Assembly (NCBI RefSeq): GCF_947503045.1
Contig: NZ_CANNCF010000002.1
Location: 1-64,000, forward strand
DNA from: an uncultured Tateyamaria sp.
GTDB taxonomy: Bacteria; Pseudomonadota; Alphaproteobacteria; Rhodobacterales; Rhodobacteraceae
DNA: 64,000 nt
Direction: 5' to 3'
The notes beneath the pieces were generated by a model. It ran no database searches. It saw only the letters and a list, made by a program, of their open reading frames with translations, and was not told the origin of the DNA. This document shows positions 4,846 through 48,141 of the stretch, piece by piece (position 1 is the first letter of the stretch; every line of letters begins with the position of its first letter). Position numbers and translations under genes: made by a program.

Positions 4846-5568
4846 CTAAAGCCCCGCCGCCGTCCGGCGCACCGTTTCGATGCGCTGTGCATTGGGCGGG
4901 TGCGTTCCAAGGAATCGGTCACCGGGATCAGGAATACGGTTGAAGAATTCAGAGCCTTTGATCGGATTGTACCCCGCCCGCGACGTGATCACTGTACCCA
5001 AAGCATCGGCTTCAAGCTCGAAATCCTTGGAATAGGACCGCGCTCCCACTTGCGCCCCGATCCGCTGTGCGGATTCGACGGCCGAAACGTCGCCCCCGCC
5101 GATCGAGGCCAGACCACCAAAGATCACCGCACCCGCCGCCGCGTTCTGCCGCTGCCGGGCAATATGACCACGGATGTGGTGCGCGGCCTCGTGGCCCATG
5201 ACAAAGGCGATTTCGTCGGCGTTGCGCGCCTCGTCCAGCAGCGCAAGGGTAAAGACAATGATCGGGCGTTCGTTTTCATCCAGCGTCTGGAAGGCGTTGG
5301 CAGGCTGGTTGGGCCGGTCGTCCACAAGAATGCGGAAGTCGCAGTTCACACCATTGGTGCGCGCGCGGCATTCGCGTTCCGCAATCGGTTCGACCCGACC
5401 CACGACACTGGCAAAGGCGCGTCCTGTCTGGTCGCGGGTGCGCAACTCGTCGGGCACATCGGCGGGCGCGGTCGCCGGCCCGGTGGAGGTGGGTGCTGAG
5501 CTGATGACGACATCATCACACGCCGCCACAAAGGTCAGGATCGCCAAAGCGGCCACAAATCGGATCAT
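4846..5568 (-). CDS. M48 family metalloprotease lipoprotein
   Basis: The 240-residue protein starts with a lipoprotein signal peptide (L-T-F-V-A-A-C, lipidated Cys17). The zinc site is clear: H126-E-A-A-H130 and a third ligand in E-L-E-A-D near residue 185, as in the M48 peptidases. It should be anchored in the envelope facing the periplasm and take part in quality control of outer-membrane or lipoprotein substrates, as BepA and LoiP do in E. coli. Those are inferences from family. The ATG at 5568 is chosen because the signal peptide begins there. Confidence 0.9.
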   Translation of the reverse strand: MIRFVAALAILTFVAACDDVVISSAPTSTGPATAPADVPDELRTRDQTGRAFASVVGRVEPIAERECRARTNGVNCDFRILVDDRPNQPANAFQTLDENERPIIVFTLALLDEARNADEIAFVMGHEAAHHIRGHIARQRQNAAAGAVIFGGLASIGGGDVSAVESAQRIGAQVGARSYSKDFELEADALGTVITSRAGYNPIKGSEFFNRIPDPGDRFLGTHPPNAQRIETVRRTAAGL

Positions 5569-5722: not shown

Positions 5723-5959
5723 ATGTTTACGATCGAGCACGAATTTGACGCAACGGTGATCACGCTGGTGGACGAGGGCGCGGCCCCGCTGCAAGAGGAT
5801 GTGATCGTCAACAGCTTTGCAGAATGTATCACCGTCGAACAGTTCGACACACGCACTGATCAGGTGGTGCGCATCACGCTGTCACCCGAACAGGTGCGCG
5901 ATCTGGCCGCCGCCCTCGATCTGCCCGAAGGGGTCTATCAACTGCGGCAGGTCGACTGA
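5723..5959 (+). CDS. Small conserved-looking acidic hypothetical protein
   Basis: This 78-residue acidic protein shows alternating strands (F-D-A-T-V-I-T-L-V-D-E-G) and a C-terminal helix (L-S-P-E-Q-V-R-D-L-A-A-A-L-D-L-P-E-G-V-Y), the look of a compact alpha/beta protein. No signal peptide and no cysteine pair. I do not recognise the family. Codon use matches the neighbours, so it is probably a resident gene. It is divergent from the M48 gene and lies 63 bp before ilvE on the same strand, so cotranscription is possible. Confidence 0.65.
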   Translation: MFTIEHEFDATVITLVDEGAAPLQEDVIVNSFAECITVEQFDTRTDQVVRITLSPEQVRDLAAALDLPEGVYQLRQVD

Positions 5960-34270: not shown

Positions 34271-34654
34271 TTATATCGCGATGAGCGTGATGATGGTCAG
34301 AACAACCGAGCCGCCCAGAACGGCGTATCCCATCTTTTCCGCCGTTTCGATGTCGAGCCCGATCGCATTGTCCCAGATCAGGTGCCGCACGCCCGCAAGC
34401 GTATGATACCAAAGCCCCAAGAGCGACAGCGCCATCACGATATCCCCGAAAAAGCTGGTCAGCACCCCGTCGGCGCGGGCGAAGGCTTCGGGCGAGGTCG
34501 AGGCCGCAAGAAACCACCACACCACCAGAAGTGCCGAGATCAGGAGCGCGTTGCCGGTGATCCGCGTCAGGATCGATGTCATCGAGGTCAGCTGCGGACG
34601 ATATATCGACAGGTGGGGCGAGAGGGGGCGGTTGCCCCGGTTGACGTCGGCCAT
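34271..34654 (-). CDS. sdhC: Succinate dehydrogenase cytochrome b556 subunit
   Basis: The 127-residue protein opens R-P-L-S-P-H-L-S-I-Y-R-P, the family signature, has three membrane helices, and carries H84 in Y-H-T-L-A-G-V-R-H, the heme b ligand, with H91 nearby. It is the first gene of the sdh operon. AAAGGACG precedes the ATG at 34654. The promoter region upstream holds a pair of GTGATCAC palindromes, also found ahead of sucC. Confidence 0.95.
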   Translation of the reverse strand: MADVNRGNRPLSPHLSIYRPQLTSMTSILTRITGNALLISALLVVWWFLAASTSPEAFARADGVLTSFFGDIVMALSLLGLWYHTLAGVRHLIWDNAIGLDIETAEKMGYAVLGGSVVLTIITLIAI

Positions 34655-34770
34655 GTTGCGTCCTTTTTTTCGTTCGTTGACACTTGATAACGCATTCTGT
34701 GCGGGAGTCACGTACTGCGCGATATGTTATGGCGTGGTTAATTGGCGCAATGCTCGGGTTTTTCCATGTT

Positions 34771-34799
34771 GTGATCACACGAGAAATGGCTGTGATCAC
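34771..34799 (-). promoter_or_regulatory. Paired GTGATCAC palindromes upstream of sdhC
   Basis: Two perfect eight-base palindromes GTGATCAC, at 34771-34778 and 34792-34799, start 21 bp apart. The nearer one begins 117 bp from the sdhC start. The same pair with the same spacing stands 115 bp ahead of sucC (44048-44076). Two sites two helical turns apart suggest a dimer pair of one regulator at TCA-cycle promoters. Confidence 0.75.
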
Positions 34800-42150: not shown

Positions 42151-42975
42151 ATGCCCCTCATGTCCCAGCCGCGCCCCATAGACCGCAAACTGACCACGAT
42201 CCTTGCCGCCGATGCTGCCAACTATTCCGGCCGCATGAACCGCGACGAGGAAGGCACCGTGCAGGCCCTGCGCGCCGCGCGCTCGGTCATCGACACCGCC
42301 ATCACCGAGGCGGGCGGGCGCATTGCCAACACCTCGGGCGATGGGCTGATCGCCGAATTTCCGTCCGTTGTGCGCGCCGTGCGCTGCGCCACGGACATTC
42401 AGGTGACGCTGAACGCGGGCGATGGCCTGTTGCCGTTTCGGATCGGTGTGCACTTGGGTGATGTGATCATCGAAGGGGCCGATTTGCTGGGGGACGGTGT
42501 GAACATCGCCGCCCGCCTGCAGGAAATGGCTGAAATCGGCGGCATCCTGATCTCGCAACATGTCTATGACCACGCCCATGGCAAGTTGGGGTCGGTTGAG
42601 TTGCGCCCCCTTGGTCCCGCCACCCCCAAGCATCTCGCCGAAGAGATCGGGGTCTATGCCGTGGTTGCCGACGGGGTGAGCGCGCCGCGCCTTCTGGACA
42701 ATCTCGGGCCCAAGGTGGCGCACAGTCCGCCGCCCCCTGATCCCGCCCTCGCGCAGCCCGTTCCGGACGAACCGCAAGAAGATACCCCCTTGCGCAAACA
42801 GTTCAAAAAGGACCGCAACCGCATTCTGGGCGGCGTCGGCGTGATCCTCTTTTTCGAGATCGCCCTTGATTTGCCCTTTCTGATCACATTCCTGCCGACG
42901 ATGGGTCTGCTGTATCTGCTGTACCGCAAATGGCGCGCCTGCAAGACGGCGGAGGAGACGGCGCCCGCAAGCTAG
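42151..42975 (+). CDS. Class III adenylate/guanylate cyclase with C-terminal membrane anchor
   Basis: The 274-residue protein has a class III cyclase domain (about 12-175): metal-binding D21 in L-A-A-D-A-A-N-Y-S and D64 in N-T-S-G-D-G-L, with N-I-A-A-R-L near 120 supplying the transition-state Asn and Arg. A proline-rich linker (about 195-215) leads to two hydrophobic segments (about 227-262). The layout, catalytic domain first and membrane hairpin last, is the reverse of many class III cyclases. No stimulus domain is seen. The start may be 42151 or 42160. The end overlaps the convergent glycosyltransferase gene by 4 bases. Confidence 0.82.
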   Translation: MPLMSQPRPIDRKLTTILAADAANYSGRMNRDEEGTVQALRAARSVIDTAITEAGGRIANTSGDGLIAEFPSVVRAVRCATDIQVTLNAGDGLLPFRIGVHLGDVIIEGADLLGDGVNIAARLQEMAEIGGILISQHVYDHAHGKLGSVELRPLGPATPKHLAEEIGVYAVVADGVSAPRLLDNLGPKVAHSPPPPDPALAQPVPDEPQEDTPLRKQFKKDRNRILGGVGVILFFEIALDLPFLITFLPTMGLLYLLYRKWRACKTAEETAPAS

Positions 42976-44047: not shown

Positions 44048-44076
44048 GTGATCACACTTTTTTGGGCAGTGATCAC
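44048..44076 (+). promoter_or_regulatory. Paired GTGATCAC palindromes upstream of sucC
   Basis: Two perfect palindromes GTGATCAC at 44048-44055 and 44069-44076 start 21 bp apart, and the nearer one ends 115 bp ahead of the sucC start. The arrangement is the same as ahead of sdhC (34771-34799), in the same orientation relative to the gene, while the 13-bp spacer differs. This points to one regulator binding both promoters from an upstream position. Confidence 0.75.
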
Positions 44077-44190
44077 AAATTTCACTTTTCTGCGCAAAAT
44101 CCGCGTCTTCGGCACATTGCTGGTTTACGCCGTCTTCAGTCCTGTTCGTATAGGGCCAACTGAGATGCATCAATACGGGACCCTACGCTC

Positions 44191-45384
44191 ATGAACATCC
44201 ACGAATACCAGGCCAAAGCCCTCTTGCGCAGCTACGGGGCACCCGTTTCGGACGGTCGCGTCGTGTTGCGCGCCGAAGACGCCAAGACCGCGGCAGGCGA
44301 AATGGACGGCCCACTTTGGGTGGTCAAGGCGCAGATCCATGCAGGCGGGCGTGGCAAGGGGACGTTCAAAGAGGCCGATGCTGGCGAGAAGGGCGGCGTG
44401 CGCCTGACCAAGTCCGCATCTGAGGCCGCCGAAGAGGCCAAAAAGATGCTGGGCCGCACGCTGGTCACCCACCAGACCGGCCCCGTCGGCAAGCAGGTCA
44501 ACCGCATCTATATCGAAGATGGCTCGGGCATCGAGACCGAGATGTATCTCGCCCTGCTGGTCGATCGCCAGACCTCCCGCGTCAGCTTTGTCTGCTCGAC
44601 CGAGGGCGGCATGGACATCGAAGAGGTTGCCGCCTCCACCCCCGAAAAAATCCTGAGCTTTTCCGTTGATCCGGCCACTGGCTATCAGGCCTTTCATGGC
44701 CGCCGCATCGCCTTTGCGCTGGGTCTGAGCGGCAAGCAGGTCAAGCAATGCGTCGGCCTCATGAGCCTGCTGTACAAAGCGTTCATGGAAAAAGACATGG
44801 AGATGCTGGAGATCAACCCGCTGATCGTGACCGACAGCGGTGATCTGAAAGTGCTGGATGCCAAGATCAGCTTTGACGGCAACGCCATGTACCGCCACGC
44901 CGACATCAACGAATTGCGCGACGAGACCGAGGAAGACCCCAAGGAACTCGCCGCCTCCAAATACGACCTCAACTATATCGCGCTGGATGGCGAGATTGGC
45001 TGCATGGTGAACGGTGCCGGTCTGGCCATGGCGACGATGGACATCATCAAGCTCTATGGGGCCGAGCCTGCCAACTTTCTCGACGTGGGTGGTGGCGCGA
45101 CCAAGGAAAAGGTCACCGAAGCGTTCAAGATCATCACCTCGGACCCACAGGTCAAAGGCATTCTGGTCAACATCTTTGGCGGCATCATGCGCTGCGATGT
45201 GATCGCCGAAGGGGTGGTGGCCGCCGTGAAGGAGGTTGGTTTGAAAGTGCCGCTGGTTGTCCGGCTTGAGGGCACGAATGTCGAAGCGGGCAAGGAGATC
45301 ATCAACTCCTCCGGTCTGGACGTGATCGCGGCGGACGACCTCAAGGACGGTGCGCAGAAGATCGTGAAGGCCGTTAAGGGGTAA
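44191..45384 (+). CDS. sucC: Succinyl-CoA synthetase beta subunit
   Basis: The 397-residue ATP-grasp subunit binds the nucleotide and succinate in the reaction succinyl-CoA + NDP + Pi to succinate + CoA + NTP. It opens M-N-I-H-E-Y-Q-A-K and has H-A-G-G-R-G-K near 51-57 in the ATP-grasp and [10 protein letters not shown] near 328-337 in the CoA-ligase domain. It is the first gene of the suc cluster and is separated from sucD by three small genes. The paired GTGATCAC motif lies upstream. Confidence 0.97.
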
Positions 45385-47256: not shown

Positions 47257-48141
47257 ATGGCCGTATTGATTGACGAAAACACCAAGGTGATCTGCCAGGG
47301 CCTGACCGGCTCGCAAGGCACGTTCCACACAGAGCAGGCGATCGCCTATGGCACCAAGATGGTCGGCGGCGTCACCCCCGGCAAGGGTGGGCAGACCCAT
47401 CTGGACCTGCCCGTCTACAACTCGGTCCACGAGGCGATGGCGATGACCGAGGCAAATGCGAGCGTCATCTACGTGCCTCCGCCTTTTGCCGCGGATTCGA
47501 TCCTTGAGGCCATCGATGCGGAGATGCCCCTGATCGTGTGCATCACCGAGGGTATTCCGGTGCTCGACATGATGCGGGTGCAGCGCGCGCTGGATGGGTC
47601 GAAGTCGCGCCTTGTCGGTCCCAACTGCCCCGGTGTCATCACGCCGGACGCCTGCAAGATCGGCATCATGCCCGGTCACATTCACAAGCGCGGGTCCTGC
47701 GGGGTTGTGTCCCGTTCCGGCACGCTGACCTATGAGGCGGTCAAGCAGACCACCGATCTGGGCATCGGTCAGTCCTCCGCCGTTGGCATCGGCGGCGACC
47801 CGATCAAGGGGACCGAGCATATCGACGTTTTGGAGATGTTCTTGGCCGATGACGAAACCACCTCGATCATCATGATCGGCGAGATTGGTGGCAGCGCCGA
47901 AGAGGACGCCGCACAGTTCCTCGCCGACGAAAAGAAGAAGGGCCGCTGGAAGCCGACGGCCGGTTTCATCGCGGGCCGCACCGCCCCTCCGGGGCGCCGC
48001 ATGGGCCACGCAGGCGCGATTGTCGCCGGTGGCAAAGGTGGGGCCGAAGACAAGATCGAAGCCATGCGCGCCGCGGGGATCGTGGTGGCCGACAGCCCGG
48101 CAACGCTGGGCGAGGCGGTGATGGAGGCGATCAACAAGTGA
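47257..48141 (+). CDS. sucD: Succinyl-CoA synthetase alpha subunit
   Basis: The 294-residue subunit carries the CoA site and the phosphohistidine. It shows [10 protein letters not shown] near 14-23 in the N-terminal CoA-binding Rossmann domain, G-P-N-C-P-G near 124-129 and the active-site H251 in M-G-H-A-G-A-I. It pairs with SucC (44191). AAGGAGACG precedes the ATG. Separation from sucC by three genes is unusual, since the two are normally adjacent. Confidence 0.97.

Follow-up and report, generated by a model that had tools for sequence, protein, structure and literature searches.

Which protein reads a pair of identical palindromes that stands ahead of both sdhC and sucC, and in which direction does it drive the two operons? 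The window, by which we mean the whole stretch of 64,000 nucleotides analysed here, contains seven copies of the palindrome GTGATCAC (at 4985, 5756, 13289, 34771, 34792, 44048 and 44069), against a mean of 1.19 in dinucleotide shuffles; none of 100 shuffles had seven or more. A sequence-only reading of this DNA had singled out four of these copies as two perfect pairs, one ahead of sdhC and the other ahead of sucC, with a start-to-start step of exactly 21 bp in each, and both statements are borne out at 34771/34792 and 44048/44069. The identities of the sdh and suc genes were established by Pfam, with two matches to Sdh_cyt, the SdhA and SdhB domains, and the SucC and SucD domains. The operators and their target genes are:

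34771..34799, minus strand: paired operator of sdhC, GTGATCAC-N13-GTGATCAC (sequence; kept in relatives)
34771..34778, no strand assigned: promoter-proximal palindrome of the sdhC pair, TGTGATCACA decamer (sequence)
34792..34799, no strand assigned: promoter-distal palindrome of the sdhC pair (sequence)
44048..44076, plus strand: paired operator of sucC, GTGATCAC-N13-GTGATCAC (sequence; kept in relatives)
44048..44055, no strand assigned: promoter-distal palindrome of the sucC pair, TGTGATCACA decamer (sequence)
44069..44076, no strand assigned: promoter-proximal palindrome of the sucC pair (sequence)
34274..34654, minus strand: sdhC, first gene of sdhCDAB (Pfam Sdh_cyt)
44191..45384, plus strand: sucC, succinyl-CoA synthetase beta subunit (Pfam ATP-grasp_2, Ligase_CoA)
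47257..48141, plus strand: sucD, 3' of sucC and in the same direction (Pfam SucD domains)

The paired operators and their putative promoters

The pair is separated from the ATG by 116 bases at sdhC (34654, minus strand) and by 114 bases at sucC (44191); the distance previously given for both was 115-117 bp. The two 13-bp spacers do differ, as had been claimed: they agree at 4 of 13 positions when oriented by gene and at 5 of 13 when read on the same strand. The lone copies at 4985, 5756 and 13289, which had been described as lying inside genes, are all within open reading frames, although the one at 5756 is covered by short frames only (48, 78 and 92 aa). In the whole genome (4,737,319 bases, 28 contigs), two copies of GTGATCAC separated by 5-35 bases occur at two places only, ahead of sdhC and ahead of sucC; this range of gaps was searched in the window's own genome only. 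Base composition of the window predicts approximately 0.0007 gap-13 pairs. When the same genome was scanned at gap 13 with up to three mismatches, the two perfect places were followed directly, among the matches listed, by places with two mismatches; no pair with one mismatch was found.

No GTGATCAC lies near or upstream of sucA (48895) in the scan of the window, and its transcription could come by read-through from sucCD. We also noted that a glycosyltransferase-like gene (PF13704; 42972-44015, minus strand) and, by eye, a cyclase-like open reading frame (42151-42975) are situated between mdh and sucC; in two relatives (L058, L068) mdh is much nearer to sucC than it is in the window.

A pair with a gap of 12-14 is present in 34 of the 61 genomes compared (our own plus relatives), and the check for relatives that lack it, which the sequence-only reading had proposed, found it present in 20/20 genomes of the same genus, our own included (19 with two pairs, one with one), and in 13/17 from other genera of the same family; outside the family it occurs in 1/24. 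In a larger sample of 199 family genomes, nearly all of different genera, 182 have at least one pair: two pairs in 144, one in 33, three in 5 and none in 17. The five genomes with three perfect pairs are G349, G422, G467, G495 and G501. In a sample of the class (289 genomes), all 5 family members, our own included, have two pairs, and one pair was found in 4 of the 284 genomes outside the family.

We placed pairs relative to genes by tblastn with the window proteins in 236 retrieved loci; these loci were mostly picked for having a pair, and the resulting figures describe position and not frequency. After pairs with the same 40-base surroundings were dropped, there were 69 distinct perfect pairs, with 40 ahead of sucC, 25 ahead of sdhC (within 400 bp) and four elsewhere; these four are those of genomes outside the family. 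All 65 family pairs, in other words, lie within 400 bp upstream of sucC or sdhC, a placement that is not random and that, together with the presence of the pair in relatives, strongly supports the earlier proposal of a shared regulator linking sdh and suc. The gap is 13 in 57 of the 65 and 12 in the other 8, a tally that does not prove other gaps to be absent from the family because the loci were mostly picked by a gap of 12-14. Once upstream regions with identical last 200 bases were removed, a perfect pair was present in 28/28 distinct sucC regions and in 24/27 distinct sdhC regions (in the remaining three, the pair carries one mismatch in one region and is absent from two). Furthermore, AAA directly follows the promoter-proximal palindrome in 28/28 sucC regions.

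A further observation from these alignments concerns the DNA between the pair and the start codon, in which we mark the following putative promoter elements:

34706..34711, minus strand: putative -35 of sdhC, GTGACT (alignment)
34684..34689, minus strand: putative -10 of sdhC, TATCAA (alignment)
44124..44129, plus strand: tentative -35 of sucC, TTTACG (alignment; weak inference)
44148..44153, plus strand: tentative -10 of sucC, GTATAG (weak inference)

Among sdhC regions the pair-to-ATG distance ranges between 113 and 179, and in 22/25 of them a GTGAC has its first base at +55..+64 relative to the pair, compared with a frequency of 2.8% in the other windows of these regions; by this alignment the sdhC promoter in the window would be GTGACT-N16-TATCAA. 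The signal at sucC is weaker: TTTA occurs at +44..+52 from the pair in 17/28 regions, compared with 6.6% elsewhere. Both ranges were picked with the alignment already in view, and close relatives contributed many of the regions. Because neither the sdhC nor the sucC region yielded a standard promoter in a scan with the sigma-70 consensus, these -35 and -10 elements are read from the alignment alone. The geometry of pair and promoter that they describe appears to be fixed, as it would be for an upstream activator.

A candidate regulator and its association with the pair

The regulator that the sequence-only reading could not name is very probably AkgR; it is highly likely that the two pairs in the window are operators of this GntR-family (FCD-type) protein. 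We take AkgR to be RSP_0981 of Rhodobacter sphaeroides, a locus number close to that of sdhB (RSP_0979). Its founding paper, by Imam et al. in 2015, is said to describe direct activation. The genome contains 21 GntR-domain matches (two of them seemingly in one open reading frame); none falls in the window (C2:1-64000), and a GntR regulator encoded within it is thereby ruled out. The sole candidate akgR ortholog in the genome is located outside the window, at C1:231292-231939, and its product (L048:1456-2103) matches PF00392 (E 2.9e-14) and PF07729 (FCD; E 3.7e-17). No other of the 21 matches is preceded by a perfect GTGATCAC in the 300 bp before the domain match; the candidate has a single copy there, with 8 bases between it and the ATG.

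That single site is kept in relatives. Of the best 80 named orthologs from 534 relatives (the closest, at 93% identity, being from Tateyamaria, so that the window probably stems from this genus or one close to it; L158 and L159 are apparently one contig filed twice), 79 have a perfect GTGATCAC in the 150 bp before the start, the exception being L148. In 67 of these 79, 5-12 bp separate the end of the palindrome from the start, whose position is an extrapolation from the alignment. Both positions are among the matches listed for 46 genomes: akgR and a pair are 5-18 kb apart in 16 of them, and in the other 30, which include drafts and the genomes G009, G021 and G472, no listed pair was found within 25 kb of akgR. 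The short distance in those 16, like the closeness of the locus numbers of RSP_0981 and sdhB, may be an indirect sign of orthology to RSP_0981. Five copies of the decamer TGTGATCACA are present in the genome as a whole, three of them at the akgR candidate, sdhC and sucC. Two copies were set aside: the fourth (L175:1500-1510; G000:C3:352260-352269) is single and, by eye, intergenic, and the fifth (L176) is by eye within a sigma-factor-like gene. The fourth copy is upstream of a helix-turn-helix gene and could be an additional, unpaired AkgR site.

The presence of akgR and that of the pair go together. An ortholog (E 1e-50 or better) is found in 183 of the 199 family genomes, and the two features are concordant in 196: 181 genomes have both, 15 have neither, two have akgR only (G347, G474) and one has the pair only (G408). 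The Fisher p for this association is 1.6e-19, a value that ignores shared descent. The first ortholog screen scored up to 15 candidates per genome; after all candidates had been scored in the 16 akgR-negative genomes, there was still no full-length ortholog among them, and the best full-length match had 38% identity (G361). The exceptional G408 has both pairs, and its only GntR matches are 37% and 32% identical; this assembly comprises 320 contigs, and the missing akgR is perhaps an assembly gap.

We inspected the regions upstream of sucC and sdhC in 30 genomes: the 18 that are negative for akgR and/or the pair, and 12 taken from the 33 one-pair genomes. In the 15 that lack both features, neither sucC nor sdhC is preceded by a perfect palindrome or by a pair with up to two mismatches in total; a lone palindrome with one mismatch remains in four of the 15. 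One of the four, G404, has no pairs, and it retains a piece of akgR (G404:C56:33057-33317; 70% identity over residues 13-99, in an open frame of 119 aa) that represents either a gene in decay or a break in the draft, together with a 1-mismatch palindrome 107 bp before sucC, which is the usual place of the proximal site. In this genome, therefore, gene and site look half decayed together. As to the two genomes with akgR only, G347 has 1-mismatch pairs with a gap of 13 ahead of both sucC and sdhC, and no pair was found in the sdhC region of G474, in which the sucC match starts inside the gene.

Of the two operons, sucC is the firmer target, because the one-pair genomes that we inspected keep it there: all 12 have a perfect pair at sucC, and at sdhC four have pairs with one or two mismatches and eight have none that is recognisable. 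In the 14 akgR-positive genomes picked for missing one or both perfect pairs, the sdhC region has no pair at up to two mismatches per half in seven, only 4-mismatch pairs at odd gaps in two, and 1- or 2-mismatch pairs in five.

Outside the family, where up to 10 candidates were scored per genome for AkgR-like genes, two of the four pairs are adjacent to such genes. In G050, from another family of the same class, the pair (L069:9809-9838, gap 14) lies ahead of a TonB-dependent receptor and adjoins an AkgR-like GntR gene of approximately 30% identity. In G169, from that same family, it (L161:992-1020, gap 13) is just upstream of an AkgR-like GntR gene, again approximately 30% identical. Because these pairs stand beside such distant GntR genes, the motif seems to belong to a wider subfamily and not to be private to AkgR; in the family of G050 the paired operator may serve uptake genes. 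The spacers of the remaining two out-of-family pairs (G213, G301) are rich in G+C.

Proposed mechanism and rival explanations

We hypothesize that each palindrome would bind one AkgR dimer. At sdhC and sucC the two dimers would be separated by two helical turns, would occupy the same face of the DNA and would bind cooperatively upstream of the promoter, raising sdh and suc in concert; a dimer on the lone site beside the start codon of akgR would repress akgR itself. One regulator would accordingly be reading both the number and the place of its palindromes: a pair with a fixed step of 20-21 bp, approximately 50-60 bp upstream of the promoter, would activate sdh and suc, and a single start-codon site would repress akgR. 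The result would be a self-limiting circuit of three promoters that locks together two successive steps of the citric acid cycle through most of the family and that decays with its regulator. We put this complete scheme forward tentatively, at a little under an even chance.

A first rival concerns the sign of the regulation. Most GntR regulators are repressors, and the single palindrome at the start of akgR suggests repression there; AkgR might similarly keep sdh and suc silent in the absence of an effector that releases it. We consider this improbable: 116 bp (sdhC) and 114 bp (sucC) lie between pair and start codon, and GTGAC is found 55-64 bp downstream of the sdhC pair in 22/25 regions, such that the pair would not cover the putative sdhC promoter. 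Moreover, the available passages of PMC6365646 describe AkgR as a transcriptional activator, with which the earlier guess of an activator agrees. A different objection is that some regulator other than the akgR ortholog reads the pairs. It draws on G408, with its pairs and no ortholog found, and on the pairs of G050 and G169 beside genes only distantly related to akgR; it has to explain why just one of 21 GntR-domain matches has the palindrome immediately upstream, and why ortholog and pair agree in 196/199 genomes, in a co-occurrence screen that covered the GntR family. We judge it very unlikely.

Each palindrome does contain GATC, and an element of DNA structure or methylation based on that tetramer, or plain chance, could be imagined to account for the pairs with no regulator at all. 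We give this almost no credence. A bare GATC would keep neither the outer GT and AC nor the spacing, and chance is already refuted by the contrast between the approximately 0.0007 pairs expected from composition and the pairs present in 182/199 family genomes. The pattern read backward has 0 matches in any listed genome; it contains CTAG and is a poor control. Probable activation by AkgR from the paired sites is the reading that we retain. It names a probable regulator for a paired site that was read from raw sequence, and it implies that most members of the sampled family probably control these same two operons through a regulator already published for R. sphaeroides. In addition, the shared loss of akgR and operator, and the contrast of paired and single layouts, offer a compact test case of how one GntR protein could be made to activate or to repress by the number and place of its sites.

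Relation to known systems

The arrangement resembles the AkgR regulon of R. sphaeroides, as far as the available passages of two papers describe it: a GntR-family regulator, the GTGATCAC site, and sucCD and sdh as targets. PMC6365646 includes GTGATCAC among AkgR binding sites and motifs, and in PMC4344238 the GntR regulator RSP_0981 is predicted to control sucCD, sdh and the genes of 2-oxoglutarate dehydrogenase. Compared with that regulon, known to us by description, our operators are pairs with a step of 20-21 bp at both operons and a single site at akgR, and no separate sucA site is seen in this window. The 21-bp pair goes unmentioned in the passages available from PMC6365646, PMC4344238, PMC4419725, PMC7471390, PMC8557541, PMC11323563 and PMC8920488, a survey with the founding AkgR paper outside its scope.

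A second parallel is PS417_07240, a gntR-like gene of the deoxyribonate cluster of Pseudomonas simiae whose product, according to the same passages of PMC6365646, is 32% identical to AkgR and has GTGATCAC near its own start codon, at -47 to -40; unlike the system described here, it serves another pathway, and one palindrome is described. CceR, a LacI-family regulator of central carbon metabolism, differs from AkgR both in its protein family and in its motif, GTT-N6-8-AAC. It is presumably RSP_1663. RSP_1663 is also predicted at R. sphaeroides sdh in the available part of PMC4344238. The regulator, the motif and the target operons are thus already in print for a relative; what is new is the strictness with which the paired layout and its regulator stay together across the family.
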